From the NCBI GenBank assembly GCA_029261155.1, contig JAJDBW010000047.1:1-64000 (forward strand): a stretch of DNA of 64,000 nucleotides, given 5' to 3'. Under the pieces are notes generated by a model. It ran no database searches. It saw only the letters and a program-made list of their open reading frames with translations, and had not been told where the DNA came from. Of the stretch, positions 14,414 through 64,000 are shown piece by piece. The DNA is from Nitrospirota bacterium (GTDB taxonomy: Bacteria > Nitrospirota > Nitrospiria > SBBL01 > JAADHI01). A program made the position numbers and the translations under genes. Each line of letters begins with the position of its first letter. The first letter of the stretch is position 1.

Positions 14414-14415
14414 AG

Positions 14416-15750
14416 ATGCAATCCATAGATCATAAACGAAAAAAAGGTGTTATCCCCTGGCGCGCACATCGTGCTTTTAGATCGATTATTCTTGGGGCTA
14501 TCGTTGTTCTCACTTTTTGTTCCATTATTGTGGAATCGGCATGGTCGATGGAACTGAAAGTGTTGAGAGGGCTTTATCAAAATGCACAATACGCGGAGAT
14601 TGTGAAGGACCTCGGGGAAGAAGGCGCATGGCGCGCCGATGAATCGCTCTATCTGGGATTAAGCCATTTGCGGCTTGGCAATTCTGAAAAGGCCATCCGC
14701 GCCTGGAAACGCTACGTGACCTTGGAAAAAGGAAGCGAAGGGGGCCGAAAGATAAACCAATACCTCACGCTGCTCAGGCAACAACATGCAAAGCAAGAGG
14801 CCCGCCGACTGATCGCGCAAGAAAAATCGCTATCGGAAAATTTGGATGCCAAGGCCATCGCGGTTTCTCTTTTTCAAAACCTGGGGCGCGCGGAGTATGC
14901 CCGGCTTTCTAAGGGCTTGGCCGAGATGATCATTACGGATTTGTCGCAAGTGAAGGCCTTGCGGGTGGTGGAGCGCATCCAAATCCAGGCCATTCTCAAC
15001 GAATTGAAATTGGCGGAGTCCGGCCTCGTCGATAAAAGCAGCGCAGCCCGGGTCGGCAAGTTGGTGGGTGCCGCGCGGGTGACCACCGGCAGTTATGTCG
15101 ATTTCGATGCCGAAAAAATTCGTCTTGATGCGGCGGTCAGCCGAACCGAAACCGGCAAGCTGCTGACGGCGAGCGAGGCCAGCGGGGCATTGGCCACTTT
15201 TTACGAATTGGAAAAAACCTTGGTTTTTAAAATTCTGTGCGGCATCGGTTACTGTCCGGAATCCTTGGAGAGCCGGGAGCGCCTTGCCGTCGAAAAAATA
15301 CACACGAAAAATTTTAAGGCCTTTGAACACTACTCTGAAGGCCTGGCACTTCGGGATCAGGGCGAGTATGTCGAGGCGGCGCGGGCCTTCTCGTTTGCGC
15401 TGGAAGAAGATCCGACATTCGACTTGGCCCGAAAGGCCCTCCTTGAAACCCCCATTGCCGAATTCGATCTTGCGGCCATGGTGAGCGGGGGAGAAGGGTT
15501 GGGAAAAGGGGGTCCGCCCATCCTTGATCTTCAGGCCATGTCGGCCTCGGCGCTTTTGGACGCGCCGATACTGCAGGGCAAGACGAGCCCGAAATCACTC
15601 CAATTGTCCGCCATTCAATCACAGGTGCCACTCTTTCCACTCATCTCACAACAACCCATGGGCAATACAGGTGGGACAACGGGCGGTGGCGGAACGGGGG
15701 CCGGCGCACCTCCGAACGTGAATGTTCAGATTCAAATTCAATTGCCATGA
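14416..15750 (+). CDS. TPR/CsgG-like secreted protein with Gly/Gln-rich tail
   Basis: A cytoplasmic basic N-terminus is followed by a signal anchor or signal peptide (about 22-44). TPR-like helices occupy about 45-130, then a CsgG/FlgO-like domain at about 150-260: GLAEMIITDLSQVKALRVVERIQIQAILNELKLAESG and GKLVGAARVTTGSYV. A further TPR follows (EHYSEGLALRDQGEYVEAA), then a low-complexity tail with GNTGGTTGGGGTGAGAPP and NVQIQIQLP. The gene begins 2 bp after the previous stop and overlaps the next by ATGA. The tail may dock on the outer-membrane complex; the function is inferred from context. Confidence 0.72.
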   Translation: MQSIDHKRKKGVIPWRAHRAFRSIILGAIVVLTFCSIIVESAWSMELKVLRGLYQNAQYAEIVKDLGEEGAWRADESLYLGLSHLRLGNSEKAIRAWKRYVTLEKGSEGGRKINQYLTLLRQQHAKQEARRLIAQEKSLSENLDAKAIAVSLFQNLGRAEYARLSKGLAEMIITDLSQVKALRVVERIQIQAILNELKLAESGLVDKSSAARVGKLVGAARVTTGSYVDFDAEKIRLDAAVSRTETGKLLTASEASGALATFYELEKTLVFKILCGIGYCPESLESRERLAVEKIHTKNFKAFEHYSEGLALRDQGEYVEAARAFSFALEEDPTFDLARKALLETPIAEFDLAAMVSGGEGLGKGGPPILDLQAMSASALLDAPILQGKTSPKSLQLSAIQSQVPLFPLISQQPMGNTGGTTGGGGTGAGAPPNVNVQIQIQLP

Positions 15751-17384
15751 GAGGAAGACAAGACATGTGCTTTCCAAAAGATTGCAGAACGAATTCGGCA
15801 CAACGGCGATTCCGGTTTATCAAGAGCACAGCGAGGGGCGGTGTTTTATCTTCTGCCCGACTGATGTTTTTTTTACTTCTTCCCCTCTTGTTTTCCTGCG
15901 GCCAAAACAATTCAAATCATTCCGATTCCTTGGGGATTACGCTCGAAATACCGCTCGGAGGATCTGAAAAGGGCCTTTCCAAATTACGTGCGGCCGAAGG
16001 CGAAGTCATCGGAGAAGTCCACTTCCGTGTTTCCACTGCAAGCGATGAAGAAGTCGTTGGGCAGGTTCAGGATCTTTTATTTGGACAACAAGCGATTTCG
16101 GTAACGCTCAATGTGCCCACGGCCGTGCCCCTGACTTTCTCGGTAGAAATTTTTGATAAGGACGGCCCGCGCCTCTTGTCTGGATCGACGGTGAAGACCC
16201 TTGTTCCCGCGAATAGCAGCGATCCGATTGTGATTCAACTTTTTCCGGAGCCTATCGTGGAATTTCCTATCGCGGTGAAAACCCATATCGAATTTGGCGC
16301 GAGCCTGGCCTTTGACGGCGAGAACTACTTGGTCGGCCTCTGGGAGGACACAGGCAATGGGGAAGGGATACAAACCCAGCGGGTTTCGCCTGCCGGAAGC
16401 CTCGTCGGTCCACCAACCGATATTTCGAGCCTGAGTGGAGACGCCTTGGGCGTGCCTTTCGTGGCCTTTGACGGCGCGAATTATTTGCTGGCGGCGCAGA
16501 TTTCCGATGAGGGTGTGCGATTGGATGGGCAAATTATTTCTACAGCGGGCGCGCTCGACGGTGAGCCCTTCAATATTGGAACTTCTTCCATTATCATCGA
16601 AGAAGAAAAGGGTGGCATGGCCTTTGGCGGGGGGAATTACTTGGTCGTTATCGAAAAGGACGATCAACAGGTTTTCGGCTACATCGTTACACCCGACGGC
16701 CAGGTCGGACGCCCCTTCTTGGTGAGCCAAAACGGCCATACGGGCGTGCACAATGTGAGCTTCGACGGCGTGAACTTTCTCGTGGTTTGGGCCGATGGCC
16801 AAAGCAATGCCGAGGTCAAGGGGCGCTTCGTCGATCCGACGGATTTGACTGGAAAAATGGGTGAGGAATTTACCGTTCATTCCGGTCAGTTTCCCAGCGA
16901 CGAATTCGTCACGCTGGCCTTCGGCGAAAGCCGGTACTTGGTGTTGTGGCAAGAAGAAGTCGGCGGGGCCGGGAGCAGCGATTGGGATATTTTCGGACAG
17001 TTGGTCGATCCCGCCGGGACCTTGATCGGCGAGCGCATAGCCATTGCGCAAGGCGCGGGTCCGCAGGTTTTTCCGAACGCTGTTTTTGATGGGGAGCAGT
17101 TCTTGGTGTCTTGGACCGAGGCCGCGAATCTATTCGATATTAAAATTCAAAAGCGCGCCTTCGATCTTTCCGGAAACCCTTTGGGCGCGGAATCGACCTT
17201 GTTTGTCTCGGCCGGTGACGGGCGCTTTCCCTGGTACAGCCGCATTGGGTTTAATGACACAAAATATTTTGCCGTGGTCAATCGCGGTCGGCCGGGAGAC
17301 GATCCCTTCGACATTAAGCAGTATCAAAATCAAGATGTTTTCGGGGCGGTTTTTTCGCTCTTGCAGCTGTCCGTATTGGATTAA
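15747..17384 (+). CDS. Lipoprotein with YLVVW-type beta repeats
   Basis: The start ATGA overlaps the previous stop; the hydrophobic segment and lipobox LLFSC come late (about residue 50), so a downstream start is possible. After the Cys comes a domain (SLGITLEIPLGG to TLVPANSSDPIVIQL) that resembles the N-terminal domain of the 19067-23227 protein. Then at least six repeats of about 45-50 residues appear, each with a core such as DGENYLVGLW, DGANYLLAAQ, DGVNFLVVWADG or GESRYLVLWQEE, consistent with a beta-propeller. It is predicted to be surface or periplasmic. No enzymatic motif seen. Confidence 0.7.
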   Translation: MRGRQDMCFPKDCRTNSAQRRFRFIKSTARGGVLSSARLMFFLLLPLLFSCGQNNSNHSDSLGITLEIPLGGSEKGLSKLRAAEGEVIGEVHFRVSTASDEEVVGQVQDLLFGQQAISVTLNVPTAVPLTFSVEIFDKDGPRLLSGSTVKTLVPANSSDPIVIQLFPEPIVEFPIAVKTHIEFGASLAFDGENYLVGLWEDTGNGEGIQTQRVSPAGSLVGPPTDISSLSGDALGVPFVAFDGANYLLAAQISDEGVRLDGQIISTAGALDGEPFNIGTSSIIIEEEKGGMAFGGGNYLVVIEKDDQQVFGYIVTPDGQVGRPFLVSQNGHTGVHNVSFDGVNFLVVWADGQSNAEVKGRFVDPTDLTGKMGEEFTVHSGQFPSDEFVTLAFGESRYLVLWQEEVGGAGSSDWDIFGQLVDPAGTLIGERIAIAQGAGPQVFPNAVFDGEQFLVSWTEAANLFDIKIQKRAFDLSGNPLGAESTLFVSAGDGRFPWYSRIGFNDTKYFAVVNRGRPGDDPFDIKQYQNQDVFGAVFSLLQLSVLD

Positions 17385-17443
17385 TGGGAAGGTCGCGTTT
17401 CAAGATAATAGGATTCAAAAATGAAAATAGAAAAGGTGGGGTC

Positions 17444-19006
17444 ATGATCCGAACAAGATTTAAGGTCGTTTTCGTTTTAATTTTGAGTGTCGCATTTCTG
17501 GGTTCAGTGCGGGTGGCGCACGCCGAAGCGGATAACTTATATCAGCGGCTGCTTTCGAAAGGCATTGGCGGTTTGGAGCGACGCGACCTGGGGCTCGCGC
17601 TACAAAATTTTGAAGAGGCCCTTGCGATGCAGCCCGAGGGCGTTGAGGCTAACTACTACCTGGGTGTGACGCATGCGCGGGCCAATCGCTTCAATAAAGC
17701 GGAGAGGCATTTTCTCAAAGCGATTTCGATCGAACGTACTTTTATGCCGGCCCAGTTTGACTTGGGGGTCCTTTATTATCAAAACAAGAAGGATCAAAAG
17801 GCGCTTCGCCTCTTCTCTATGGTGCAAGGGATGGACCCGGATCGGGCACGCGTTTATTTTTATCAGGGCGTAATTCTCCGTCGAAATGGAAAAACGGAAG
17901 AAGGCGATGCGAAGCTCGATCGGGCGCTTGCGCTCGATTCCGAGCTTGCGGCGGAAATTAATTTTTTAAGAGGGGCCGGCCACTTGCAGGCCGGACAATC
18001 CCGTGCCGCGCGAAAATCCTTACAAGAGGTGATTACCCTAACGCCGGAAGGTGAACTGGCGGACGCGGCGCGAGATTTGTTGGCACAAACGGGGGGGGCT
18101 TCCGGCAAGAAAAAACGCCTCAGTCTGCAGGCCTCCTTGGGCCTGCAGTACGACGACAATGTCATCCTCGAACCACGTTCGGCTTCCGCTTCAGCGGCGG
18201 GGATTACGAAGAAAAGCGATTTCGTCGGCCTGCTCTATCTACTGGCGAAATATGCCTGGTTGCAAGGGGACGATTGGCGCGGCGATCTCAAATACACTTA
18301 CTTTCTTAATTTCCACCAGGACAGTTCCTTGACTGATTTCGATGTCCAGGATAATCATTTTTCCGCAAGTGTTGGTCGCCGTTTCGGGAAGTTTGATGCC
18401 GACATCGAATATACCTTTCAAGTGGCCACCTTGGGCGGCGAAACCTACATACTTGCACATCGATTTCGCCCCAGAGCCATGCTTCATCATTCGAGGGCAC
18501 AAATTTCTGAGCTGGTGTATCAGTTCGGCATGAAGGATTTTGAAGATATTCCCTTGCTCTTTCCCGCCAATTCCGAACGCGATGTAAAGACCCATTTCCT
18601 CGGATTCAGTCATTATTTGGTTTACCTTCAAGATGGCGTGGTCTACGGAACGCTCTTGTATGAAATGGAAGCGGCGGGCGACAGTATTGCCGAAGACGAT
18701 TGGGGCTACGATGCCTTCGGCTTGAAATTGGGTACGGCCCTGCCGCCTTGGCACAGCCTAACGGCGGCCTTCGAATTGAATTGGCGGATGCGTCAATACA
18801 AAAACCCAAACCAACTTGCGCCGCTTGCGAACCCCGGGTTAAAACGGGAGGACGACGATCTTCTCTTCATCGTTTCCTTGAGCCGGCCCCTGAATGACGC
18901 CCTCGATCTATCGGCCCAGTACTTATATCAATTGAACGATTCGAATATCGCGGCTTTCGATTACCGACGGAATATTGTGGGATTTATCATCACGGCCAAG
19001 TATTAA
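17444..19006 (+). CDS. TPR protein with C-terminal outer-membrane beta-barrel
   Basis: The start is placed at ATG 17444 (MIRTRFKVVFVLILSV), behind AGGTGGGG, giving a signal peptide ending near AHAEA. TPR units span about 25-210 (ALQNFEEALAMQPEGVEANYYLGVTHA and successors). From about residue 225 the sequence switches to amphipathic beta strands beginning LSLQASLGLQYDDNVIL and ending in an aromatic-rich strand (YRRNIVGFIITAKY). This resembles the TPR-plus-barrel layout of surface-lipoprotein assembly modulators and exopolysaccharide porins. It could move one of the two neighbouring lipoproteins, or the small subunits, to the cell surface. Confidence 0.72.
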   Translation: MIRTRFKVVFVLILSVAFLGSVRVAHAEADNLYQRLLSKGIGGLERRDLGLALQNFEEALAMQPEGVEANYYLGVTHARANRFNKAERHFLKAISIERTFMPAQFDLGVLYYQNKKDQKALRLFSMVQGMDPDRARVYFYQGVILRRNGKTEEGDAKLDRALALDSELAAEINFLRGAGHLQAGQSRAARKSLQEVITLTPEGELADAARDLLAQTGGASGKKKRLSLQASLGLQYDDNVILEPRSASASAAGITKKSDFVGLLYLLAKYAWLQGDDWRGDLKYTYFLNFHQDSSLTDFDVQDNHFSASVGRRFGKFDADIEYTFQVATLGGETYILAHRFRPRAMLHHSRAQISELVYQFGMKDFEDIPLLFPANSERDVKTHFLGFSHYLVYLQDGVVYGTLLYEMEAAGDSIAEDDWGYDAFGLKLGTALPPWHSLTAAFELNWRMRQYKNPNQLAPLANPGLKREDDDLLFIVSLSRPLNDALDLSAQYLYQLNDSNIAAFDYRRNIVGFIITAKY

Positions 19007-19066
19007 GGAAAGACAACAAGCTTGCGATCAAAAAAATCGGAGCCGATCCGCGAATGCGAGAAGACG

Positions 19067-22000
19067 ATGGAGATCTTAAAGAAAAAGACCCTGGCGAATG
19101 GGACAAGGCATTGTGTTGGATTACGGACCCTTGCGCTTTTTTTTCTGCTTTTGTTTTTCGCAGCCTGTGGTCCCGGTGCTTCGGGCGGGGGCGCACCGGA
19201 GTCCACAAGCGCCGTCGGCATTACACTTTCCCTTCCCCAATCGAATACGGGGAATCGATCTAAAGCCCTTCGCGCCCCGTCGGTTTCCGAATCCATTGCG
19301 TCCTTACGTATCACGGTGAGCAGTGCCGACGGCGATGCCTTGACTTCGGCGGATCTGGATGTTTCCACGGGTGGAACCGTGACCGTTCCCTTGGCCGTGC
19401 CTTCCGGTTCTGCACGTCTTTTTGTTGTCGAAATCCTCGACAATAAAAAGAGGGTCTTGTTTCTGGGCAGCGCGATGGCCGATCTCTTGCCCGGTGTGTC
19501 CGTGACCCTGCCTGTCAGCGTTAGCCCACCCATGACGATCAGCCCGAATGTGATTAGCATTCCGGTCCGGGGCAGTCAGCAGTTTCAAGCGGCCTTGAGT
19601 CCCGCTTTGCTGGGGCTACTGATGGATGCGACACTCGATTGGCGCATCGAAGATGAAAATGGAACCGTCATCAAGGTCGGGATCCTTCCCGAAACAGGCG
19701 CGGCAGTGACCTACACCGCGCCGGATCAATTGCCAATTCAAAGCGACTTGATTATTAAAGTCTCCCTGCGCTCGAATCCAAATATTTATCAAAGCCTGCC
19801 GCTCTCCATTGTTCTGGCGCGCCTTGTGGATGGTCAGCTCGGCAATGATGGAGGGGATTGCGGCAGCGAACTTTCCCCCTGCAAAACCATCGGCAAGGCC
19901 ATGAACTTGGCAAAGGCGGGTGAGGTGGTCCTGGTCAAACCGGGCGTCTATCCTTTCGGCGGCGCCAATGGTGAAGCGGTGCCCTTGCCCTTGACCGAAG
20001 GCGTCACCTTGGAAGGCCAGGCGATCGACGGGCAATTGGCCATTCTCGATTTTATCTCTCCAAACAAGGACGACGATGAGACGCCGGGACCCGGCATTCT
20101 AGGTGCAAACGATGCGACCATTCGTGGCCTGACCCTTCAGGAAAACGGCCAATTTGACAGCCTCATCGACACGAAGGGATCGACGCTGGTCATTGAAAAT
20201 AATGTTTTTAAAGATTTGTGTGGGCAGTGCGGGGCTGTGGCGCTATGGGTTCAAGGCGGGGGCAGCCCGGAGATCTTGGGCAATCTCTTCGGGGATTTCG
20301 ATGCCGATGGTTTTACAAGGGCGTTACAAATTGATGACGCAAGCACACCGCGAATCCAATCCAACAGTTTTATTGGAAACAAAACTGGCGTTTCCATCCA
20401 AAACCCGGCTCAACCGGATATGGGCGGTGGGGCAAAGGGAAGCCTTGGCCACAATCGGCTTAGCTGTAATGAGGATGCCGATTTAACTAACAATTCATCC
20501 ACAGGAATTCTTTTTGCGCAAAACAACCAATGGGACCACGCGCCTCCGGAAGAGGGTGTGTTCGCGGTCGGGAGTGGAATCGACATTTTCGACGCGGGGC
20601 GTTTCATCGATGCAAGCAATGACAGCCTTTTTCCCAATTCGCGTTGCAATTACGGCATTCGCGTTTCGCCGGTATCCGGGTTGGTCACGACGGAAGATGG
20701 CGGAACCGCGAATTTTACAGTGGTATTGAACACCCCTCCGAAGGCCGATGTCTTCATTACCCTTTCGTCGAACGATACCAGTGAGGGGACGGTTTCTGTG
20801 CCAAGCTTAACGTTCACATCGGAGAATTGGAATCAGGTACAAACAGTGACGATTACCGGGAAGGACGATGACTCGGTAGACGGGGATGTCTCTTATACGA
20901 TTGAAATCGATCCCGCGCAAAGTGAGGATCTTCATTACGAGGGCAGGGATGCCGAGGATGTGTCTGTGCTCAATCAGGATAACGATTCGGCCTCCGGCGC
21001 GGGCATTACTGTGAACCCGACTACTGGCCTCGTTACGACGGAGGCAGGCGGCACGGACACCTTCACTGTCGTCCTGCGATCGCAGCCGACGGCGCCGGTC
21101 ACCATTGGGCTGACTTCGGATAACACCTTAGAAGGCACCGTTTCTCCGAACAGCCTAACCTTCACAGTCGCCAACTGGAACCGAGAACAAGTCGTGACGA
21201 TCACGGGTCAGAATGATGACGTGGCCGATGGCGATGTGGACTACACCATTGTGACGGCAGCGGCAAGCAGCAGCGATGCAATCTACAACGGCATGGATGC
21301 GGAAGATGTGACGCTTACAAATCAAGACAACGATACGGTCGGCATTACCGTGAATCCCATCGCCGGTCTGGTGACGACCGAGGCGGGCGGAAGCGACAGC
21401 TTTAGCCTTGTGCTCAATTCGCAGCCGAGGGCACCGGTGACCATTCGATTGCGGTCGAGCGACACGACAGAAGGAAGCCTTTCACTCAGCAGCCTCACTT
21501 TTACGGCGACCAATTGGAACATCGAACAGCGCGTGACGGTGACAGGCGTCAATGACGACATTGATGATGAAGATGTCGATTACTTAATCATCACCACCGC
21601 ATCGAGCAATGATGCAGCGTACAACGTGATCGATCCTGACGATGTGGGTGTCACGAATCGTGATGACGATCAGTTCGGCATTCTTGTTAATCCACTCATC
21701 GGCTTGGTGACCACCGAAGCGGGCGGAACGGCGACCTTTACCGTTGTCCTTCAGTCTCAACCGACGGCAAACGTGAATATTGGACTTTCTTCCAGTGACG
21801 GAACGGAAGGCCGGGTCTCAGCCCAGAGCCTCACCTTTACTTCCACAAACTGGAACCAGGCACAAACCGTGACCGTCACGGGACAAGATGACGATGTGGC
21901 CGATGGACCGGTTGCGTACACCATTTTCACGGATCCTGCAACAAGCAACGACCCGAGCTATAACGGACTGGATCCCGCGGATGTCTCACTTACGAACCAA

Positions 22001-23227
22001 GACAACGATGCTGTCGGCATCACCGTGAATCCCATCGCTGGTTTGGTGACCACCGAGGCGGGCGGAACGGACCGCTTTACCCTCGTTCTAAACTCACAAC
22101 CGATTGCCGACGTTACGGTCCGTATTTCATCAAGCGATACGAGTGAAGGAAGCGTTTCGCCGATTAGCGTAAGCTTTGGTTTGGCGAATTGGAATCAAGC
22201 CCAAACTGTGGTCGTGACCGGACTGGATGATAGTGTGGTGGATGGTGATATCGCTTACACGATTGTGACGGCACCCGCCGGGAGCAACGATCCGAATTAC
22301 AATGGCCTCGATCCCTCCGATGTCGCGGTGACGAACCAGGACAATGATGTGCTCTCGCACACCCTCACCGTTCGGACGGCCGGAACGGGACGCGGATCTG
22401 TCAGTTCTCTTCCCGCCGGGATTGATTGCGGCCAGGACTGTTCAGAAAGCTTTCCGGCGGGTACACAGGTCCGCTTAACCGCGATTCCAGACAAAGCCTC
22501 GGTCTTTAGCGGTTGGAGCGGCGATCCGGATTGCAGTGCAGCAGGCGCGGCAACTTCGGTGACCATGAATGGCGATAAAACCTGCGTGGCGACCTTCACG
22601 CTGCTTTATATCTTCAAGGCCAACTTCGATTCCGACGATGTCGGCAAACCCCCGAATATCAGTCCGCCCGCGCAGGGCGACCAGGTTTGGGATCGCTTGG
22701 AACTCATTACAGGCCAGAGCGGAAGGGTTCACGTTCAGGACCAGGTGGGTGACTTGAGTAAAAACCCGCTTTTACTCGATTCGCCGACACGCCAAAATGG
22801 ATCCGTTGCTTTCCGCGGATTTGTGGAAGGGGCGCCGCCCGGAAGAGGTGTCTATCTATTGCGCTGGCAGTCCCTTTTGAACTCGGACCCCCAGGTTCCT
22901 GTTGCGGCCAATATCGGCATCCTCGACAGCGAGGGGACGATCATCGGGGTCCTGACTTACCGCGCAGGTAATTTGCTCGACTTCAATAATATTTCCCCGG
23001 AGGAAGGCATTGGCGTGCCCTGGAAATTGGATGTCGCTCAAACCTTTGAGGTGACTGTAAATCTCGACATAAACAGGCTGAGCCTTACTATTGACGGTGT
23101 CGCAGTTTCGGGATTTCAGGATGTCCCCTTCTTTAGTCAGAATACGGGGGGTCTTGCAGAGATTATTATGAGTGTGGGTGTGCTTCAGAAGATGGGTGTG
23201 GACGATATCGAAGTGATCGTCCAGTAA
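19067..23227 (+). CDS. Giant lipoprotein with parallel beta-helix and five Calx-beta repeats
   Basis: The track start at 19022 is a TTG; the ATG at 19067 gives 1386 residues with a signal ending in lipobox FFAAC. Order: a post-Cys domain shared with the 15747-17384 protein; a beta-sandwich; a DUF1565-like right-handed beta-helix (GNDGGDCGSELSPCKTIGKAM onward); five Calx-beta-like modules (GITVNP..GLVTTEAGG...LTNQDND); an InlB-type bacterial repeat (GWSGDPDCS); and a lectin-like C-terminal domain. Asp-rich DND turns suggest Ca2+ binding. It is the last gene of the operon and is probably a surface adhesin or scaffold. Confidence 0.8.
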   Translation: MEILKKKTLANGTRHCVGLRTLALFFLLLFFAACGPGASGGGAPESTSAVGITLSLPQSNTGNRSKALRAPSVSESIASLRITVSSADGDALTSADLDVSTGGTVTVPLAVPSGSARLFVVEILDNKKRVLFLGSAMADLLPGVSVTLPVSVSPPMTISPNVISIPVRGSQQFQAALSPALLGLLMDATLDWRIEDENGTVIKVGILPETGAAVTYTAPDQLPIQSDLIIKVSLRSNPNIYQSLPLSIVLARLVDGQLGNDGGDCGSELSPCKTIGKAMNLAKAGEVVLVKPGVYPFGGANGEAVPLPLTEGVTLEGQAIDGQLAILDFISPNKDDDETPGPGILGANDATIRGLTLQENGQFDSLIDTKGSTLVIENNVFKDLCGQCGAVALWVQGGGSPEILGNLFGDFDADGFTRALQIDDASTPRIQSNSFIGNKTGVSIQNPAQPDMGGGAKGSLGHNRLSCNEDADLTNNSSTGILFAQNNQWDHAPPEEGVFAVGSGIDIFDAGRFIDASNDSLFPNSRCNYGIRVSPVSGLVTTEDGGTANFTVVLNTPPKADVFITLSSNDTSEGTVSVPSLTFTSENWNQVQTVTITGKDDDSVDGDVSYTIEIDPAQSEDLHYEGRDAEDVSVLNQDNDSASGAGITVNPTTGLVTTEAGGTDTFTVVLRSQPTAPVTIGLTSDNTLEGTVSPNSLTFTVANWNREQVVTITGQNDDVADGDVDYTIVTAAASSSDAIYNGMDAEDVTLTNQDNDTVGITVNPIAGLVTTEAGGSDSFSLVLNSQPRAPVTIRLRSSDTTEGSLSLSSLTFTATNWNIEQRVTVTGVNDDIDDEDVDYLIITTASSNDAAYNVIDPDDVGVTNRDDDQFGILVNPLIGLVTTEAGGTATFTVVLQSQPTANVNIGLSSSDGTEGRVSAQSLTFTSTNWNQAQTVTVTGQDDDVADGPVAYTIFTDPATSNDPSYNGLDPADVSLTNQDNDAVGITVNPIAGLVTTEAGGTDRFTLVLNSQPIADVTVRISSSDTSEGSVSPISVSFGLANWNQAQTVVVTGLDDSVVDGDIAYTIVTAPAGSNDPNYNGLDPSDVAVTNQDNDVLSHTLTVRTAGTGRGSVSSLPAGIDCGQDCSESFPAGTQVRLTAIPDKASVFSGWSGDPDCSAAGAATSVTMNGDKTCVATFTLLYIFKANFDSDDVGKPPNISPPAQGDQVWDRLELITGQSGRVHVQDQVGDLSKNPLLLDSPTRQNGSVAFRGFVEGAPPGRGVYLLRWQSLLNSDPQVPVAANIGILDSEGTIIGVLTYRAGNLLDFNNISPEEGIGVPWKLDVAQTFEVTVNLDINRLSLTIDGVAVSGFQDVPFFSQNTGGLAEIIMSVGVLQKMGVDDIEVIVQ
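20656..22350 (+). repeat. Five tandem Calx-beta-encoding repeats
   Basis: Units of about 330 bp start near 20656, 21001, 21339, 21676 and 22014. Each encodes a start like GITVNPIAGLVTTEAGG and an end like ADVSLTNQDND. DNA similarity between units is high enough to allow recombinational changes in copy number. Confidence 0.75.
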
Positions 23228-53623: not shown

Positions 53624-54988
53624 ATGGCATTCCGACCGGATTACACAGCCGATCCTTTTTATCTCTCCATCCTCAACAGCATCACCGATACCATGATCGT
53701 CATAAAAAAAGATTTTACCGTGGATTATGCGAATCAATCGGTTCAATGCGATTCTGTAGACGAGGCCGTAGGCCAAAAGTGCTATGCCCTTTTACATGGG
53801 CGGACGACGCCATGTGAGGACTGTCCTTGCACTGATGTATTTAAAACGGGCAAACAGTCCCGATCCATTCGGCGGAGTGGGCATCAAGGTGAAGCCCTTC
53901 AAAAAGAACTTCGGGTTTACCCGATTTTAGATGTGGACGGTCAGGTGGCGCGCGCCATCGAAATTGTGCAAGACCTGCCTTTTTATACCGATTCCTCGCC
54001 TGTTGCCTTGCCCGCTTCACCCGGCGAAAAAACCGCTTTTTTCGGAATGATCGGACAGAGCAAAAAGATGCGGGCTTTGTTTCACATGACCTGCCTCGTT
54101 GCGCCGAGCAACGCTACCGTTTTGATTTGCGGGGAAAGCGGCACAGGAAAAGAACGGGTTGCGCAGGCCATTCATCAACTGAGCCCTCGACGCCAAGGTC
54201 CTTTCGTCGCGATCGATTGTGGTGCCTTGCCCGAGACCTTGTTGGAGAGCGAGCTCTTCGGTCATGTTAAAGGCGCCTTTACCGGCGCTTTTCAAAATAA
54301 GAAAGGACTTTTTGAAGAAGCCAAAGGGGGCACTCTGTTTCTGGACGAGATTGGCGACACGAGCTTGGTATTTCAATCGAAACTTCTACGGGCCCTGCAG
54401 GAAGGTGAAACACGTCCCGTCGGAGGAAACCGAAGTGTAAAGATCGATGTCAGGTTGATCGCCGCGACGAACCGGTCCTTAAAAGAAGCCATTGCCAAAA
54501 AAACCTTCCGGGAAGACCTCTACTATCGATTGGCCGTCATGCCAATTTTAATTCCTCCCTTACGCGGACGCCTAGACGATATTAGGCTTTTATGCGATTA
54601 CTTCATCAAGAAATATACCCAGCAAAATGGGAAGGGGCCCATGACATTGTCGAAAGAGGCTTTCGAAGTCCTGCTCCGCATGCCTTGGAAGGGAAATGTT
54701 AGGGAATTGGAGAACATTATCGAGCGCGGGGTCCTCGTATCCCAGCAATCCGAAATCTTACTTGAATCCCTCCTTATCGATGAAGAGGTGACTTCATTCG
54801 CCCCACCCATTTTCGGTTCTCTTTTAAGCGGAACAAAGGAGGTCCGTACCCGTGTCGAAAGAGAGCGTATCATTGATTCTCTAGAACAACATAATGGGAA
54901 TAAGTCACGAGCCGCACGTGCCCTCGGTATCTCACGTGCAAGTTTATATAACAAGTTAAAGCAATATCAGATCTCAAGCGCGGCCTAA
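53624..54988 (+). CDS. Sigma-54-dependent transcription activator (PAS-AAA+-Fis)
   Basis: N-terminal PAS domain (about 12-125) with a Cys cluster ([17 protein letters not shown]) that could hold a metal or act as a redox switch. AAA+ domain: Walker A GESGTGKE at about 170, the sigma-54 contact loop GAFTGA at 217-222, Walker [10 protein letters not shown] and the arginine-finger region REDLYYRL. C-terminal Fis-type helix-turn-helix ([21 protein letters not shown]). No receiver domain. It is the only sigma-54 activator in the window and so a reasonable but untested candidate for the TTCCGGAAnCCGAAAG sites. Confidence 0.92.
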
Positions 54989-55345: not shown

Positions 55346-56062
55346 ATGAAAACATTAAATGCACTCCCGATTATCGATTGCCGCCAGTGTCAGGCGCGTG
55401 CGCAATCGTCCTTCTGCGGTTTGCTAAAGGACGACGAAATTAATCTTTTTATGCAGTTAAAAAAAGACCATTTATATCAGAAAAATCAGGCCTTGTTTTA
55501 TGAGGGCCACAGTTGCGACACGATCTACCTCCTTTGCAACGGCAGTGTGAAATTGGTGCAATCTTCCGACGCAGGCCACCAACAGATCGATGAAGTGGTG
55601 TCTCCAGGCGGATGGGTCGACAAAGGCGCAGCATTCTCCAGCGGCCGTCATTCCGTGACCGCCCAAGCCTTGGAAAATTCGGTGGTCAGCCTCTTGTCGG
55701 TCGCCCAAATTTTGCCAAATTTAAAATCGCTCCCGAGCTTGTCGCTGACCTTGATCACCGCTTTGAGCAAGGAAGTGGATAAGGGGAGGGAGCGCCTTCG
55801 CCTACTCCGAACCAAAAGCGCCAAGGCGCGTTTGGCCAGCGTTCTCCTGGGGCTTTGCCGAACGCATGGTGTGAAGCAGGACCATGGCATTTCGATAAAA
55901 CTCGCCCTAAAACGGGAAGAGTTGGCCGAGATGGTTTGCGTGACTCAAGAAACAGTCGTTCGTCTTTTGACTTCGCTTAAAAAAGAAGGGCTCATACAAT
56001 TGTCTGGTAAAGAGATTACAATTCTTCAAGAACAAGGCCTCTCCCGCATCCTCAATCACTAA
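55346..56062 (+). CDS. Crp/Fnr-family transcription regulator
   Basis: An N-terminal Cys group (CRQCQARAQSSFC) precedes the cyclic-nucleotide-type beta-roll (LYQKNQALFYEGHSCDTIYLLCNGSVKL). A dimerisation helix follows, then a winged helix with KREELAEMVCVTQETVVRLLTSLKKEGLI. The Cys spacing differs from E. coli FNR, so an Fe-S cluster is possible but not shown. It lies 420 bp upstream of the multicopper oxidase on the same strand and may control it. Confidence 0.88.
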   Translation: MKTLNALPIIDCRQCQARAQSSFCGLLKDDEINLFMQLKKDHLYQKNQALFYEGHSCDTIYLLCNGSVKLVQSSDAGHQQIDEVVSPGGWVDKGAAFSSGRHSVTAQALENSVVSLLSVAQILPNLKSLPSLSLTLITALSKEVDKGRERLRLLRTKSAKARLASVLLGLCRTHGVKQDHGISIKLALKREELAEMVCVTQETVVRLLTSLKKEGLIQLSGKEITILQEQGLSRILNH

Positions 56063-56481: not shown

Positions 56482-59400
56482 ATGGAGAAAACAGGGAAAA
56501 CCAAGTTGAGGGTGCTTGCCGTATTCTTGCTGATCTTCTCGTCACAAGGCGGGGTCTATGCCGGCGGTGATCATCATTCTAGCCATGACACTTTAGAAAC
56601 GGAGCGAGGACATACTGTTGAGAATGTGGATGCCCAGAAGCTGGCCTCGGCGGACTGGAAAGCGAAACTTCGGGAACAGATTAAGCGGGAAGAGCGTCAT
56701 GAAGGCGATGAAGGCCGCACCGCCCTAGTGGATAAGGCCATGAATTCTTTGATGGGCGAGATCAAGGGGCACCAGGCGAAATCGGGAAGCTCCGGACCCT
56801 TCAGCGATTTAAGTGCCATGCAGCAGATGGATCGAAGCTGGTTTCTTGGGCCGACAGGTGCGGCGGAGACGGTAACGGCCGGTGGAAGATGCCCAAGCAA
56901 TGCACCCGTAAAAGAATTGGATGTCTCTGCAATCAACATCGAAATCACGCTGAACCAATGGCTCGATTTTCACCCGGGCTACATGTATGTCTTAACGGAA
57001 AACCTCGAGGCGGTTCGTGAAGAGGAACGATTGAACCGGGAGGCAAGAAAAAAACCGGGATACGATCCGGGTGCGGTGAGCTTGGGACATCAAACCGACT
57101 TGATCACGCCTTTGATCATTCGGGGTAACCAAGGCGACTGCATGATTATTACCCTCCACAATCAACTTGAGGGTGAAGATGCCAGCATGCACATTCATGG
57201 TTCCCAAATGGTGGTTCAGAAGACCGGACAACCCGCGACCTCGGTGAATCCCGACTCCACCGTTCCCGAAGGCGAGAGCCGGGTCTTCGAGTGGTATATT
57301 CAAGCGGATGCCCAAGAAGGCGGGCTGTCCTTCCACAGTCATGTCGGCCGCGAACCCGGCAGCCTTGGTCTCATCGGGTCTTTCATTGTCGAGCCGATGG
57401 GTTCACGCTATTTAAATCCAATCACGGGCAAAGAGGCCAAGAGCGGCTGGCAGATGATGATCGCCTACGACGATGACCTTGACCCCATATCAAAAGACTT
57501 CCGTGAGTTTGTGCTGGTCTACCATGAGGTCGGCGATGAATCCTTCCGGCCTTTAAATCGAGACGGCGAAATGATCCCGCAGCGCGACCCGAATACCGAT
57601 GCCTATCGGCCTTCGGCGCGGGCAATGAATTTTCGGAGCGAGCCTTTTGGTATTAACAATTTAGCCGTCCAAGAAAAATATTTCCATTTCGAAGACGAGT
57701 CGATGGCCTACAGCGCCTATACTTTTGGAGATGTGCCGACGACGATTCCGCGGTCTTACATGGGCGACCCCGCGAAATACCGCCTCGTGCACGGCGGCGG
57801 CGAGGTCTTTCACTCTCACCATCCCCATGGTGGATCGATCCGCTGGTTGCGTCAGCCCAAGGCGGACGGCAAGAGCGAGGAGTTGTTGACGGCGGCTTGG
57901 GACAACCCGGTGAAATTTCCGGTGATTCGAACCGTTTCGGATCGCGTCGATGTCGAAGTCATCGGGCCTTCTGAGGTCCTCGATTTACAGACCGAATGCG
58001 GTTCCGGCCTATGCCAGCAATTGGCAGGGGATTTTCTTTTTCACTGCCATGTCGCACATCATTATGTTGCCGGAATGTGGGGCTACTGGCGGGTTTACAA
58101 CACCCTTCAATCGGGCAACTATCCCTTTACCAGTACCGATGCCATGGTCCCTTTGCAGGAGCTTCCGGATCGAAAAGGGCGAATGAAACCGGCCGTGACC
58201 TCGGACAAGCTCGTCGGCAAGACCATGGACTGGTTTGACAAGAAGTGGAACATTACCAAGAAAAAAACCGATTGGTCGAAACCTATCCCCGATGTCTCGG
58301 TCAAGGATTGGGTAACCATGATGGTGCCGCCCGCCGGTGAGCCGGGTCATACTTCCGACGAAAAGGGGCAGATCCTTGCCTACGACGCAAGTGTTTGGGA
58401 TTGGACCTGGGACGGCCTGAAGGCCATGGGTGAAAAAGAGGCGACAGGTAAATTCAACAATCCGAAATACAAATCGCCCATGCCCGGCAAGCGGCCACCC
58501 ATCCTTTTCGATGCGAAGACGGGCAAGATTGCCTGGCCGCACTTTAAGCCGCATTTTGGCAAGCGGGTCCCTTTTGCCCGGCATCACGGCCCAGCCCCTT
58601 GGCTGGAGCCCATCCACATGGACAAGAATAATGGTTCGCTTTCGACTGATCCGGGGAGTGTCGGCGCACCAGGCGAGGAGACGACCCAACCGGCGCGACC
58701 CGGCGAGCAAGGTCGTTGGTCACTCTGTCCCGAAGGTGCGGGCCGGAAGCAGTACACCATCCACTTTATCCAAACCCCGATTACGATGAACGATGCCATC
58801 GGGGGCGATAAACGGGTGGTCGATCCGGACGGCACGATCTTCGTGCTGCAAGAAGAGGTGGCGAAAGTCCGGGCCAATCCTGATTTGGCGCGGCCCTTGG
58901 TCTACCGGGCCAATATCTACGACTGCATCGATGTCATCTTAAAGAGCGAGTGGGTCGATAATAATCCGACCAACTTCCAGATGTCGAAGATCAACATCCA
59001 CCCGCACTTCATCCAATTCGATAACCAGGCCTCGGACGGGGTCATCAGCGGCTTTTCCTACGAACAGTCGATGCGGCCTTTTACGATGCTGAGCAAGGAT
59101 GAAAAACGGGGCTTGCCCGCACCGATGAATGCGCTTCAGGTGGCGGATTCGGCACCCGGCGCGATTCAAATCAAGCTGAAGATGGGCAAGGGCACCGTGC
59201 CCTTCCATGAGAATACCGACATCATGCTCGGCATGCACGAGGTAGAAACCTCCGAGGTGCGCTGGATTCGGAAGATCGAACGCGATGCCGCAACCGGGGT
59301 CGATACCCTGACCTTTAGCGAGCCCCTCAAGAACGCCCATAAAAAAGACGAGATCATCTCGACGGAATTCGTCCGTTACCGCCTATGGGCGGATGCCGAT

Positions 59401-61449
59401 GTCGGGACGGTCTTCTGGCACGACCACGCCTTAGGCGGCACCACTTGGCCGCACGGCGCGGTCGGCGCGGTCATTATCGAGCCGGTGGGGTCCACCTATC
59501 ACGACCCGGTTACAGGGGATGAGATCCGCAGCGGCCCGATCGCCGATATTCACTCCATCGAGCCGATCGGCTACGGCTACAGCGGCAGCTTTCGAGAAAT
59601 GGCCCACTTCCTTCACGACACCGTGCCTTACACGGCCCAGGTCGTGACCGATGGCAATCCACCGGGTCAAAGCAAGCAGGCTGCCATCGATGCCGGGCAG
59701 GTGCTCTTTTTTCAGATGCCCAACGATCTGGACTATGCGGCAGTGACGCATCTCAACGGCGGTACGCATACGACGGGCGGCGGCTTTTTCTTCAAGGCGG
59801 AATCGATTGCCAAGCGTCTGAAGAACAATCCCGATCCCTCGCTGGTGTTCTCCAGCATCGCGCATAAAAAAGATCCGGGTACGCCCTTGCTCAGGGCCTA
59901 TCTCGGCGACACTATCGTGTTTAGAACGCTGCACACAATGATGAATGAAACGCACACCTGGCACATCGCGGGTCATGCCTTTCGAACCGAACGCTATGCG
60001 CAGAACTCCGATTTTAGGAATGCACATCATATCGGCATCGCGGAGCGCTATGACCTGGTGACCCGGGCGGGCGGTACAATGCAGATGGCGGGCGACTACC
60101 TTCATTTTGACGGACGCCCATCCCATCTTGGCGAAGGAAGCTGGGGCATTATCCGTGTCTTGGACGAGGAAGCCGGCGATCTAAAGAGGCTCCCAGGGAA
60201 AGACCTTGTTCCCAAATCGGCGAAGCAAGTCTGTCCCTCGGATGCCCCGCTCAAGCAATTCAAGGTGGTGGCGACCGATCATGCCTTAAAGTACAACCAA
60301 AACGCGCCAGACGTCATCGAGGTGGACTTCGATCGGACGCTTCAGGTGGCTAATCCTGAGGGCAAAATTTTTATGCTCGAAGGAGACATGGCGAAGGTCG
60401 CGGCGGGAGATCAGCCCCATCCTTTAACCCTGCATGTCAACTCCGGGGATTGCGTTAAAGTTACGCTCCGAAACAATCTAAAGGGAAAGAAGGCTTCGTT
60501 CTCTGCCGACATGCTGGCCTTCGATCCGCTCGATTCGCAGGGCGTAAACGTCGGGAACAATAAAGGTGATCAAACCGTTGCCCCCGGAAAGAGCAAGACC
60601 TACACCTTTTATGCGCCGCCGGAATACGGAGAGTTTTCTGCGCTGGTGTGGGACTGGGGGAATTTCATGAACAGCGTCCGTGATGGGCTTTATGGGGCGA
60701 TTGTTGTCGGTCCGCGGGGTGCGAATTACCGCGACCCAATTACCGGCGAAGACGTTTCCAATAAAAACGCCTGGGCGGTGGATGTCATCCTCGACCGGAG
60801 CAATCCGAAAATGGCGGGCCGATCCGATTATCGTGATGTGTCGCTCTTCTTTCAAGATGAAGACAACATCATCGGCACCGCCTTCATGCCTTATATCCAG
60901 CAGATTGCCGGATTGGCGGGCGTGAACTACCGCATCGAACCTTGGATGTACCGCGAAGAAAACGGGTGTGAATTGGGGACGATGTTTACGCCTTGCGTTG
61001 CGGGCGAGAACGATCCGGCCACGCCAACCATCTTGGCGCATGCCGGAGATCCGGTCCGCATTCATGTCTTCGGAGCCTTCAACGAGCAGAACCAGGTGTT
61101 CAGCCTCGAAGGACACTCCTGGCCTTTCAAGATCAATATGCCGGGGGCGGACGAGATGCATTCGGAAGAGTTCGGTTCGTCGGAAAACCTCGATGTCATG
61201 GTCCGGACGGCGGGTGGTCCGACTCAACTGCCGGGAATCTACCTTTGGCAGAACCACCGCCTGCCTTATGCAGCCGCAGGCCAGTGGGGCTACTTCAAGG
61301 TGTTGCCGTCGGGGAATCAATCGATTCTTCCTTTGAATACGGGCGGCGGGATCGGTAACCGGATGGCCGAAACACCGGAAGGCGGTGCACCGGAGGTGCT
61401 GTCGGGTTTGGACGAAGTTCCCGGCCCGGTCTCGATGCTCGAAAAATAA
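56482..61449 (+). CDS. Giant multicopper oxidase, MofA-like (1655 aa)
   Basis: Signal peptide ending VYAGG, then multiple cupredoxin domains. The first module has all four copper motifs: HIHGSQ (His237/239), FHSHVG (285/287), HSHHPHGG (444-449) and FHCHVAHHYVAGM (His521-Cys522-His523, His527, Met532), so a type 1 site and a trinuclear centre are complete. A second module keeps NIHPHFIQFD (840/842), WHDHALGG (980/982) and HTWHIAGHAF (1158-1165) but has no HCH; a third retains only EGHSWPF-type remnants. Length is close to Leptothrix MofA (about 1660 aa), a putative Mn(II) oxidase. It oxidises a metal or small molecule outside the cytoplasm and reduces O2. Mn(II) as substrate is inferred. Confidence 0.88.
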   Translation: MEKTGKTKLRVLAVFLLIFSSQGGVYAGGDHHSSHDTLETERGHTVENVDAQKLASADWKAKLREQIKREERHEGDEGRTALVDKAMNSLMGEIKGHQAKSGSSGPFSDLSAMQQMDRSWFLGPTGAAETVTAGGRCPSNAPVKELDVSAINIEITLNQWLDFHPGYMYVLTENLEAVREEERLNREARKKPGYDPGAVSLGHQTDLITPLIIRGNQGDCMIITLHNQLEGEDASMHIHGSQMVVQKTGQPATSVNPDSTVPEGESRVFEWYIQADAQEGGLSFHSHVGREPGSLGLIGSFIVEPMGSRYLNPITGKEAKSGWQMMIAYDDDLDPISKDFREFVLVYHEVGDESFRPLNRDGEMIPQRDPNTDAYRPSARAMNFRSEPFGINNLAVQEKYFHFEDESMAYSAYTFGDVPTTIPRSYMGDPAKYRLVHGGGEVFHSHHPHGGSIRWLRQPKADGKSEELLTAAWDNPVKFPVIRTVSDRVDVEVIGPSEVLDLQTECGSGLCQQLAGDFLFHCHVAHHYVAGMWGYWRVYNTLQSGNYPFTSTDAMVPLQELPDRKGRMKPAVTSDKLVGKTMDWFDKKWNITKKKTDWSKPIPDVSVKDWVTMMVPPAGEPGHTSDEKGQILAYDASVWDWTWDGLKAMGEKEATGKFNNPKYKSPMPGKRPPILFDAKTGKIAWPHFKPHFGKRVPFARHHGPAPWLEPIHMDKNNGSLSTDPGSVGAPGEETTQPARPGEQGRWSLCPEGAGRKQYTIHFIQTPITMNDAIGGDKRVVDPDGTIFVLQEEVAKVRANPDLARPLVYRANIYDCIDVILKSEWVDNNPTNFQMSKINIHPHFIQFDNQASDGVISGFSYEQSMRPFTMLSKDEKRGLPAPMNALQVADSAPGAIQIKLKMGKGTVPFHENTDIMLGMHEVETSEVRWIRKIERDAATGVDTLTFSEPLKNAHKKDEIISTEFVRYRLWADADVGTVFWHDHALGGTTWPHGAVGAVIIEPVGSTYHDPVTGDEIRSGPIADIHSIEPIGYGYSGSFREMAHFLHDTVPYTAQVVTDGNPPGQSKQAAIDAGQVLFFQMPNDLDYAAVTHLNGGTHTTGGGFFFKAESIAKRLKNNPDPSLVFSSIAHKKDPGTPLLRAYLGDTIVFRTLHTMMNETHTWHIAGHAFRTERYAQNSDFRNAHHIGIAERYDLVTRAGGTMQMAGDYLHFDGRPSHLGEGSWGIIRVLDEEAGDLKRLPGKDLVPKSAKQVCPSDAPLKQFKVVATDHALKYNQNAPDVIEVDFDRTLQVANPEGKIFMLEGDMAKVAAGDQPHPLTLHVNSGDCVKVTLRNNLKGKKASFSADMLAFDPLDSQGVNVGNNKGDQTVAPGKSKTYTFYAPPEYGEFSALVWDWGNFMNSVRDGLYGAIVVGPRGANYRDPITGEDVSNKNAWAVDVILDRSNPKMAGRSDYRDVSLFFQDEDNIIGTAFMPYIQQIAGLAGVNYRIEPWMYREENGCELGTMFTPCVAGENDPATPTILAHAGDPVRIHVFGAFNEQNQVFSLEGHSWPFKINMPGADEMHSEEFGSSENLDVMVRTAGGPTQLPGIYLWQNHRLPYAAAGQWGYFKVLPSGNQSILPLNTGGGIGNRMAETPEGGAPEVLSGLDEVPGPVSMLEK

Positions 61450-61531
61450 ACCGGGCCAAAAAAGGCATGGGGGCAAGGCGTTCCTCGTCTTCGTTTTGCC
61501 TCCAAGCCTCCGAGGCGAGAAAAGGAAATCG

Positions 61532-62500
61532 ATGCGAAGATATCTAGACTTGAGTATCGTTGTTCTTCTTATTGGGTGTGTCGGCTTCATTCCCTATTGT
61601 GAGGCGCAAGCCTATGAAGAGGTTGATGTTGCCAACGCGGGGTCGATTACCGGTCGAATCACCCTGAAAGGTCCGCGTCCGAAAGCCAGAGTCTTTGCCC
61701 TGGTTCTCTATCCCTTCGGCCCATTTTGCAAAAAAATATCGGATGGGGCAGGAAATGTTCGCCTCAATGATTTTGTCGTCAATGCGGGTGATGGCTTATG
61801 GGAAGCGGTGGTCGCCGTCAAGGCCGTCGATAAAGGCAAGCCTTATCGTCCGGCGGTCGCCGATTTTGTGGCGGTGGACTGTATGTTTCACCCAGCCGAC
61901 ATCGCCGACAGTGAGATTTTTTCTGTCGACGAGGCGGGCCAAATGCATCATGAACATCCGAATGTCGCGATCATTCATAATCATCAAAGAATGAATGTGA
62001 TCAACCGGGATCCGATTATCCATAACATCCAAGTCTTTCAAAACGAAAAAGGGAATATTATTTTGAATGCCCCTCTTCCGGGCGCAAAGAAGCCGAAGCC
62101 GGGGGTCCAGCCGCTTGCTTACAAACCGCGAGGTGGGGTCTTGCATTATAAAAAAGGGAAACGTATTTCGCAGATGATTTGCGGGATGCACGAGTTTATG
62201 CAGAGCTGGGGTTTTGTCGTGGACAATCCTTATTTTTCGAAAACGGAAAAAGATGGTCGCTATAAAATTGATGGACTGTTGCCAGGGACCTACACGGTGA
62301 GTATTTGGCATCCGCATTATGAAGTCTACGAGAGGAAAGTGACCGTGCGCGCGAATCGGACGACGACCCTCGATTTTGCATTCGATGCCAGCTTGATCAA
62401 TAATCCGGAATATGAGTCGCAAAAACAGTTTCGAATCAGCCCCGCAACGCCGGAAGACCATGAGCTGCGCGAAGGAGAAGAGCGCATCATCATGGATTAA
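61532..62500 (+). CDS. Periplasmic cupredoxin-like protein with carboxypeptidase-regulatory-like domain, paralogue 1
   Basis: The start is moved to ATG 61532 (MRRYLDLSIVVLL) behind AAAAGGA; a signal peptide ends near CEAQA. A first region (about 28-150) begins YEEVDVANAGSITGRI and contains CMFHPAD. A possible type 1 copper site is His164 in DPIIHNIQVF with Cys217-x2-His220-x2-Met223 in CGMHEFMQSWG. The C-terminal GRYKIDGLLPGTYTVSIWHPHYE is a carboxypeptidase-regulatory-like beta-sandwich. It follows the oxidase by 82 bp and may be its electron acceptor. Confidence 0.75.
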   Translation: MRRYLDLSIVVLLIGCVGFIPYCEAQAYEEVDVANAGSITGRITLKGPRPKARVFALVLYPFGPFCKKISDGAGNVRLNDFVVNAGDGLWEAVVAVKAVDKGKPYRPAVADFVAVDCMFHPADIADSEIFSVDEAGQMHHEHPNVAIIHNHQRMNVINRDPIIHNIQVFQNEKGNIILNAPLPGAKKPKPGVQPLAYKPRGGVLHYKKGKRISQMICGMHEFMQSWGFVVDNPYFSKTEKDGRYKIDGLLPGTYTVSIWHPHYEVYERKVTVRANRTTTLDFAFDASLINNPEYESQKQFRISPATPEDHELREGEERIIMD

Positions 62501-62534
62501 GAAGCCCCCTTTCCAGAGGGCAAGGGAATAGGCG

Positions 62535-63407
62535 ATGTCAAAATTTTTTATCCAGACAGGGGTTTTGAAGGGCGTTCTCTTCTTATTTATCCTGTGGGTC
62601 CCGGTTTTGGGCTGGACTTACGAGGAGGTCGAGGTGACCTCCGGTGGGACATTAAAGGGCCGCGCCTTTTTACAGGGGACCACGCCGCCTGCTCGCATCT
62701 ATCATCTCATTTTCTCTCCGAATATCGAATTCTGCCGGAATATTTCAGATGGAAATGGAAATCGAATCTTGCGTGAGTTCCGGGTTTCGGATGCGGGTGG
62801 GTTTGAAAATGTATTGGTGGCCATCATCGGTGTCGGGAAGGGCAAGCCCTTCGACTTTACGCCAAAAATTAATATTGAGCATTGCCGGATGACCCCCTTT
62901 GTGTCGGCCATACGTCATAGGCATCCCATCGCCCTTTCCAACAAAGATCCGATTACGCATGACGTTCAAGCCTATACCTTGAAGGGCGATTATACCTTTG
63001 CGATGTTCAACAAACCCATGCCCGCCAAGACGGAGGCGACACGGCAGGTCCTTTTCCGCGATGGTCATACTTTCTTCAGAACCCAGTGCGGGGTGCACGA
63101 TTATATGCAGTCTTGGGGGATGGCCGTTGGCAATCCCTACTTTGCCGTGACGGACGAGGACGGACACTTCGAAATTCCGGATGTGCCGCCGGGGACCTAT
63201 TATGTGGTGGCCTGGCATCCGCATCTAAAGCCGAAAGCGCAAGAAATTACGATTGAATCGGAAGAAAGCGTTTCAGTCGATTTTAATTTTGATGCCGCAG
63301 AGGTTCATATCCCCCTTCACGACCGTCAACTCAATTACCGCTTAAATACCTGGCTTGAGCCGCATCACCTTGTTCCTCCAACGGTTGAACTACAGATGTA
63401 CAACTAA
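62535..63407 (+). CDS. Periplasmic cupredoxin-like protein, paralogue 2
   Basis: Signal peptide ending near VLGWT, then the same plan as paralogue 1: YEEVEVTSGGTLKGRAF, His142 in DPITHDVQAY, Cys185-x2-His188-x2-Met191 in CGVHDYMQSWG, and the C-terminal HFEIPDVPPGTYYVVAWHPH. It lacks the His-rich HHEHP/HNH insert of paralogue 1. Spacing of 34 bp indicates the same transcript. The pair probably arose by duplication and may differ in redox potential. Confidence 0.75.
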   Translation: MSKFFIQTGVLKGVLFLFILWVPVLGWTYEEVEVTSGGTLKGRAFLQGTTPPARIYHLIFSPNIEFCRNISDGNGNRILREFRVSDAGGFENVLVAIIGVGKGKPFDFTPKINIEHCRMTPFVSAIRHRHPIALSNKDPITHDVQAYTLKGDYTFAMFNKPMPAKTEATRQVLFRDGHTFFRTQCGVHDYMQSWGMAVGNPYFAVTDEDGHFEIPDVPPGTYYVVAWHPHLKPKAQEITIESEESVSVDFNFDAAEVHIPLHDRQLNYRLNTWLEPHHLVPPTVELQMYN

Positions 63408-63408
63408 G

Positions 63409-63434
63409 GGCAAGTTCGTTTGGCAAAACTTGCC
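63409..63434 (+). terminator. Hairpin after the oxidase operon
   Basis: GGCAAGTT/AACTTGCC with a 10-nt loop lies directly after the last stop. No T-run follows, so it is at best a weak or Rho-assisted terminator. Confidence 0.35.
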
Positions 63435-63638: not shown

Positions 63639-64000
63639 ATGACTCGTCGATCTTACAGGGGAAGTTTAAGCGCGCTTCAAAACGACCCGATCAGAATTTT
63701 AAAAGCCGAACACAATATATCACTTCTGCGATTGGATGCCATTGAGCGCTCGCTGCAATTTTTGGAAAGTCTTCCGAGGTCCGGAGTGCGAGAGGATAGT
63801 ACAGACGAACAGACGCACCTTCGAGATTGTTTAATCTCGCTTCAGCATCTGCTAGAACTTCATTTCCTTAAAGAGGAAGAGGCCTTATTCCCGGTATTGG
63901 CGGAATATATCGGTCGGGCAGGCGGCCCGATTGATGCGGTGGTCGACGAGCATACGCGTATTCGAAGCGCCTTGGGCGATTTAAGACAAAAGGTCACTGA
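63639..64000 (+). CDS. Hemerythrin-like protein, runs off the window
   Basis: Not in the ORF track because no stop lies in the window. ATG at 63639 reads MTRRSYRGSLSALQNDPIRI, then LKAEHNISLLRLDAIERSL, then LLELHFLKEEEALFPVL and VVDEHTRIRSAL. The spaced His/Glu residues (EHN, HFLKEEE, DEHTRIR) fit the di-iron four-helix hemerythrin/HHE fold. Possible roles are O2 or NO sensing or iron handling. At least 120 residues. Confidence 0.75.
   Translation, partial: MTRRSYRGSLSALQNDPIRILKAEHNISLLRLDAIERSLQFLESLPRSGVREDSTDEQTHLRDCLISLQHLLELHFLKEEEALFPVLAEYIGRAGGPIDAVVDEHTRIRSALGDLRQKVT

Follow-up and report, generated by a model that had tools for sequence, protein, structure and literature searches.

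A large MnxG-related multicopper oxidase and its cupredoxin neighbours in a relative of Ca. Manganitrophus and across its class

An MnxG-like multicopper oxidase (MCO) is conserved in Nitrospina and Ca. N. defluvii, the Nitrospira and Nitrospina enzymes lie in NXR gene regions together with cupredoxin-like proteins, and a Mn(III)-based protection against reactive oxygen has been suggested (Lücker et al. 2013, PMC3578206). In our search for literature on the function of the Nitrospira MCO, the Nitrospina genome paper was the only relevant find. For Ca. Manganitrophaceae, Yu et al. (2022, PMC9040806) state that every member encodes 'two novel MCOs', that a role of these in lithotrophy would require a periplasmic carrier, not O2, to receive the electrons, and that the model favours Cyc2 and PCC_1 cytochromes, with the MCOs having no clear path to energy conservation. 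In this study, we analysed a 64,000-nucleotide stretch of DNA (hereafter the window), contig C42 of a 3.56-Mb genome which belongs to the same order as Ca. Manganitrophus and, by the grouping used, to another family of that order than the genomes resembling Ca. Manganitrophus. The window encodes one large MCO followed by two cupredoxins (partners 1 and 2; Table 1). This set is an already known, general-purpose enzyme system, and its oxidase is probably of the same protein family as the Nitrospira/Nitrospina MCO, a family found throughout the window's class, Nitrospiria.

Table 1. Positions of the oxidase, its partners, their putative copper ligands, and flanking features in the window
Feature	Position	Strand	Remarks
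PAS-sigma54-dependent activator	53624..54988	+	relatives near several MCO loci
CRP/FNR-family regulator, upstream of MCO	55346..56062	+	also adjoins the copy in locus L093
MCO, MnxG-related	56482-61449	+	1655 aa, six cupredoxin domains
Domain 1 HxH (H237-I-H239), extra pair	57190..57198	+	unconserved class-wide; H in 43/54 and 49/54
Domain 1 HSH (H285, H287)	57334..57342	+	complete only in the window's clade; H287 in 26/54
Domain 2 L3 HxxHxH	57811..57828	+	H444 T1, H447 T2, H449 T3, assigned by motif; 54/54
Domain 2 L4 HCHxxxHxxxxM	58042..58077	+	H521, C522, H523, H527, M532; 54/54
Domain 3 L1 HxH	58999..59007	+	H840, H842; 54/54
Domain 3 L2 HxH	59419..59427	+	H980, H982; 54/54
Domain 6 Glu1543	61108..61110	+	at T3 ligand position by motif alignment; E in 52/54, D in 2
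Domain 6 His1592	61255..61257	+	only in the window's clade; H in 25/26 M-type (one gap), 0/28 N-type
Partner 1, secreted cupredoxin	61532-62500	+	322 aa; C-terminal prealbumin-like (CarboxypepD_reg) domain
Partner 1 type 1 copper ligands	62021..62200	+	H164 ... C217-x2-H220-x2-M223; invariant 27/27
Partner 2, paralogous cupredoxin	62535-63407	+	290 aa; same layout
Partner 2 type 1 copper ligands	62958..63107	+	H142 ... C185-x2-H188-x2-M191; invariant 27/27
Hairpin directly after last stop, possible transcript end	63409-63434		8-bp arms; terminator-like site count not above shuffles

The 1655-residue oxidase reading frame described in an earlier note on this DNA was confirmed on the + strand at 56482-61449. 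Its ATG is preceded by a good ribosome-binding site (AAGGAG), and a Sec-type signal peptide was recognised by inspection at the N-terminus of the product. Cu-oxidase_3 and Cu-oxidase_2 of Pfam both scored above cut-off, six cupredoxin domains could be traced by motif, and HxH, HxH, HxxHxH, and HCHxxxHxxxxM/L are all present with 12 invariant ligands, as in a multicopper oxidase. The nearest solved structure is that of MnxG, the Mn(II) oxidase of Bacillus (PDB 9bxa, E=5e-83), which the window MCO matches in several stretches that together span most of its length. Like MnxG and the MnxG-like protein of Priestia, the window MCO is a six-domain large MCO with L3/L4 in domain 2 followed by L1/L2 in domain 3, the motif order that places it among the MnxG-related large MCOs. 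It differs from MnxG in being ~430 residues longer than the 9bxa chain, owing to an N-terminal extension and inserts, and in having an extra HxH pair in domain 1. MofA of Leptothrix is similar in length to the window MCO.

The relationship to MnxG, along with the occurrence throughout the class and the near absence from other parts of the phylum, argues for a Mn(II)-to-Mn(III) oxidase with O2 as acceptor, which would serve protection against reactive oxygen species or Mn detoxification with the cupredoxins as accessory proteins, as proposed for the Nitrospira/Nitrospina MCO by Lücker et al. 2013 (PMC3578206). However, the MCO is far from the cut-off of the MnxG equivalog NF041487 of NCBIfam (102 versus 3100 bits), which the Priestia relative does not reach either (333 bits), Mn activity is not predictable from MCO sequence alone, and our literature search found no assay for any Nitrospira. 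Oxidation of Mn(II) with O2 by the MCO is possible, but this protective or detoxifying function, a more specific form of the explanation that we prefer below, is a tentative alternative that we consider unlikely on the whole.

The copper ligands were assessed in 54 long non-redundant MCO homologues from the class, 26 of the clade that includes the window (M-type) and 28 of the Nitrospira-type clade (N-type). Twelve residues are invariant in all of them (H444, H447, H449, H521, C522, H523, H527, M532, H840, H842, H980, and H982), and domains 4-6 contain no complete ligand set. The large MCOs of Priestia, Haladaptatus, and Streptomyces have the same order in domains 2 and 3 and lack the domain-1 pair. 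This invariance and the shared arrangement place the type 1 (T1) site in domain 2, and the most likely position of the trinuclear cluster is between domains 2 and 3, which corrects the location of the catalytic copper set. The earlier note had counted one complete set of copper motifs; the number is right, and the conserved set consists of L3/L4 of domain 2 and L1/L2 of domain 3, with the domain-1 HxH pair as a non-conserved extra. A trinuclear cluster formed by the canonical pairing of domains 1 and 2 was rejected because the domain-1 histidines, albeit canonical in appearance, are not conserved and thus do not seem to form the catalytic site. Since the AlphaFold model of residues 130-1250 (domains 1-4) has a mean pLDDT of 47.5 with an 18-row alignment, the domain 2/3 cluster is deduced from motifs and from the homology with MnxG-like enzymes.

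Outside the catalytic set, the window's clade carries further histidines in domains 1 and 6. Nitrospira-type copies differ from the window MCO in having neither H287 nor H1592, and H287 is replaced by Tyr, Phe, or Trp in all 28 of their sequences. The interface of domains 6 and 1 is the place of the trinuclear cluster in ceruloplasmin. It is conceivable, although doubtful, that MCOs of the window's clade have a second, T1-less metal site at this interface, composed of H237, H239, H285, and H287 together with H1592 and E1543, at which a substrate metal, for example Mn(II), could be bound and oxidised. The pattern of H287 and H1592 was also considered as covariation, and was rejected as independent evidence since it follows essentially one split of the tree. 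As a conservation pattern, this clade-specific histidine set is the sole trait without a match in the literature consulted, and it is possibly a new one.

These extra histidines, the six-domain ceruloplasmin-like layout, weak matches to CopA and ascorbate-oxidase models, and the CopC genes adjoining the Streptomyces and Priestia relatives are also consistent with copper or iron handling, where the MCO would be a cuprous or ferrous oxidase resembling CueO or ceruloplasmin and the cupredoxins would be copper carriers. However, neither a copper export gene nor one for CopC was recognised adjacent to the window locus, and the type 1 sites of the partners are of the electron-transfer kind, unlike the Met-rich motifs that bind copper. 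We therefore regard this function as rather improbable.

The two partners share 29% identity (E=7e-50), which makes them paralogues, and they have the His...Cys-x2-His-x2-Met sites described in the earlier note. These ligands are invariant in 27 of 27 homologues, as are two cysteines in the N-terminal region. The mechanical reading frame of partner 1 extends from a GTG at 61385 to 62500, whereas the supported start is the ATG at 61532 with the ribosome-binding site AAGGA. Pfam assigned CarboxypepD_reg to the C-termini of both partners, and the predicted partner model (pLDDT 84) has a prealbumin-like domain at the C-terminus. Single-domain cupredoxins, among them amicyanin and the purple cupredoxin 5fc9, are structural matches of this model (TM by target 0.5-0.7), and the match to the cupredoxin fold together with the invariant ligands identifies the partners as type 1 copper cupredoxins. 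The Cys-x2-His-x2-Met loop has the spacing of that in amicyanin. In addition to this loop, the partners have in common with amicyanin and other single-domain cupredoxins a distant N-terminal His and, according to the model, the fold, whereas the two-Cys N-terminal region and the C-terminal prealbumin-like domain are additions of the partners, and the structural match to amicyanin has ~9-17% identity. No amicyanin chain was found at E<=1 in a profile search, loop spacing and fold being the only points of agreement, and the neighbour genes examined included no recognisable methylamine dehydrogenase. Distant partner homologues (~30% identity) are found on plasmids, mostly rhizobial, and so this protein type is not limited to the MCO system; a partner profile search found no relatives of the partners beside the MCOs of Priestia, Streptomyces, and Haladaptatus.

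The three genes lie on one strand, with gaps of 82 nt between the MCO and partner 1 and 34 nt between partners 1 and 2, and the number of terminator-like sites between the MCO and partner 1 does not exceed that expected by chance from shuffled sequence. Because of the short gaps and the hairpin after the last stop, co-transcription of the MCO and the two partners, which the earlier note had stated, is predicted as likely. Downstream of the partners lies the gene for a hemerythrin-domain protein (182 aa; window 63639-64000, L012:15640-16188), relatives of which adjoin the MCO loci L093 and L019. Nitrospira-type loci often encode, after the partners, a HEAT-repeat protein and a secreted protein of 200 aa without known family, and in both clades a secreted protein of the FGE-sulfatase type is found repeatedly near MCO loci. 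In the window genome, an FGE-sulfatase-type protein and a molybdopterin (Oxidored_molyb) oxidoreductase are encoded beside the second MCO copy (L011:3758-5226). Another part of the window (7799-23227) holds a cluster of CsgG-type, TPR-trypsin, Ser/Thr kinase-PEGA, AhpC/TSA-TPR, and DUF1565 proteins, which resembles a surface-assembly cluster and has several CsgG-domain proteins in a row.

The MCO was detected in 163 of the 164 sampled genomes of the class, as against three weak matches in 232 other genomes of the phylum. Most class genomes contain two or more copies, these being minimum counts (at least two where two were recorded). In the window genome, the second copy (contig C17) is 73% identical to the first and has three partner cupredoxins; a further partner-type cupredoxin homologue is encoded on contig C4, away from any MCO (L013:6114-6953). 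The nearest named relatives of the window MCO include those of Ca. Manganitrophus GAC4 and other Ca. Manganitrophaceae (71-72% identity; loci L019, L020, and L028) and those of several Nitrospirota MAGs (OFTM series, 128-326; mostly 83-85%). With two MCOs per genome, the same order, and 71-72% identity, the window genome resembles what is reported as 'two novel MCOs' in the excerpted text of PMC9040806, where, by contrast, cupredoxin partners are not described.

In the tree, the MCOs of the class form two well-supported clades: M-type, with the window, Ca. Manganitrophus, and several other families, and N-type, with the Nitrospira-type family and others. M-type MCOs extend beyond the order to which the manganese oxidisers belong. 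The copies in the window and on C17 belong to different M-type subclades, each shared with other families, which suggests that they diverged before the family arose. A third, divergent MCO copy of GAC4 falls outside both clades; such a divergent third large MCO (~53% identical) is encoded directly upstream of an M-type copy in GAC4 (L020:3348-8180) and in genome G183 (L089:1-4272), separated from it by a 392-aa 'DGTIYVGS'-type repeat protein that looks beta-propeller-like by eye. AmoA (PF02461) was found in 40 genomes of the largest family of the class, which thus holds ammonia oxidisers and is the family of comammox Nitrospira. Of the non-redundant MCO loci, 20 of 23 in the window's clade and 22 of 28 in the Nitrospira-type clade have a partner immediately downstream. 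The other copies (9/51) have no cupredoxin neighbour, and at least two of these exceptions (L062 and L064) may be explained by the shortness of the flank, because in close relatives two partners come after one intervening gene. With partner homologues also present elsewhere in the genome, the partners are not strictly dedicated to the MCO, contrary to the earlier note. Judged from the genome sequences, the MCO-cupredoxin module is ancestral to the class, to Nitrospira-type nitrifiers and relatives of Ca. Manganitrophus alike.

The earlier note had proposed a pathway from an extracellular reductant, possibly Mn(II), to periplasmic electron carriers, of importance for energy conservation. Read as a model of Mn(II) lithotrophy, the MCO would accept the electrons of extracellular Mn(II) and hand them on to these carriers by way of the two cupredoxins, with conservation of energy. 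Several findings agree with such a model: a large MCO related to MnxG, two cupredoxins with intact type 1 ligands that are conserved as neighbours, a kept gene order, and a place in the order of the Mn(II)-oxidising Ca. Manganitrophus, whose whole family has two such MCOs (PMC9040806). The Mn(II)-dedicated, energy-conserving pathway itself was not borne out, as the near-universal MCO extends to ammonia-oxidising relatives and the module is equally present in nitrifying ones. Moreover, an MCO with a complete T1 and trinuclear cluster set passes electrons to O2, and hence offers no obvious energy conservation, and the potentials of amicyanin-type copper sites are as a rule much lower than that of Mn(III)/Mn(II). 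A reverse flow from Mn(II) through the MCO and cupredoxin to the respiratory chain would need a bypass of the trinuclear cluster as well as cupredoxins of very high potential. The published model favours Cyc2 and PCC_1 cytochromes (PMC9040806). In the loci read, none of the genes adjoining the module was recognised as encoding a cytochrome. The N-terminal heme motif of Cyc2 had no match in the genome, although the pattern is strict and Cyc2 may still be present. Taken together, a manganese-lithotrophic role of the module seems very unlikely.

The account that we prefer, with moderate confidence, is that of a secreted MnxG-related O2-reducing MCO with cupredoxin electron partners, which has a general role throughout the class, Mn(II) as a possible substrate, and no dedicated manganese-lithotrophy chain. 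A one-electron donor would reduce the T1 copper in domain 2 (H444, C522, H527, and M532), from which electrons would pass to the trinuclear cluster provided by domain 2 (L3/L4) and domain 3 (L1/L2), and O2 would there be reduced to water; the ligand set is given by conservation, and from it we infer the cluster geometry and the reaction. The two partners would be secreted type 1 copper electron carriers, which most likely bring electrons, or copper, to the MCO rather than drain energy-yielding electrons. In the simplest reading, the cupredoxins feed the MCO or serve its copper supply. Since the module appears ancestral to the class and is usually present in at least two copies, its role should be general, probably in periplasmic redox or metal homeostasis, and its equal presence in nitrifiers suggests that the basic function is common to them.

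In summary, cultivable Nitrospira would provide a test case for this system, and the histidine difference between the clades could be checked by mutation or structure. The oxidase-cupredoxin module appears to be a core trait of the whole chemolithotroph class rather than a marker of Mn(II) lithotrophy.
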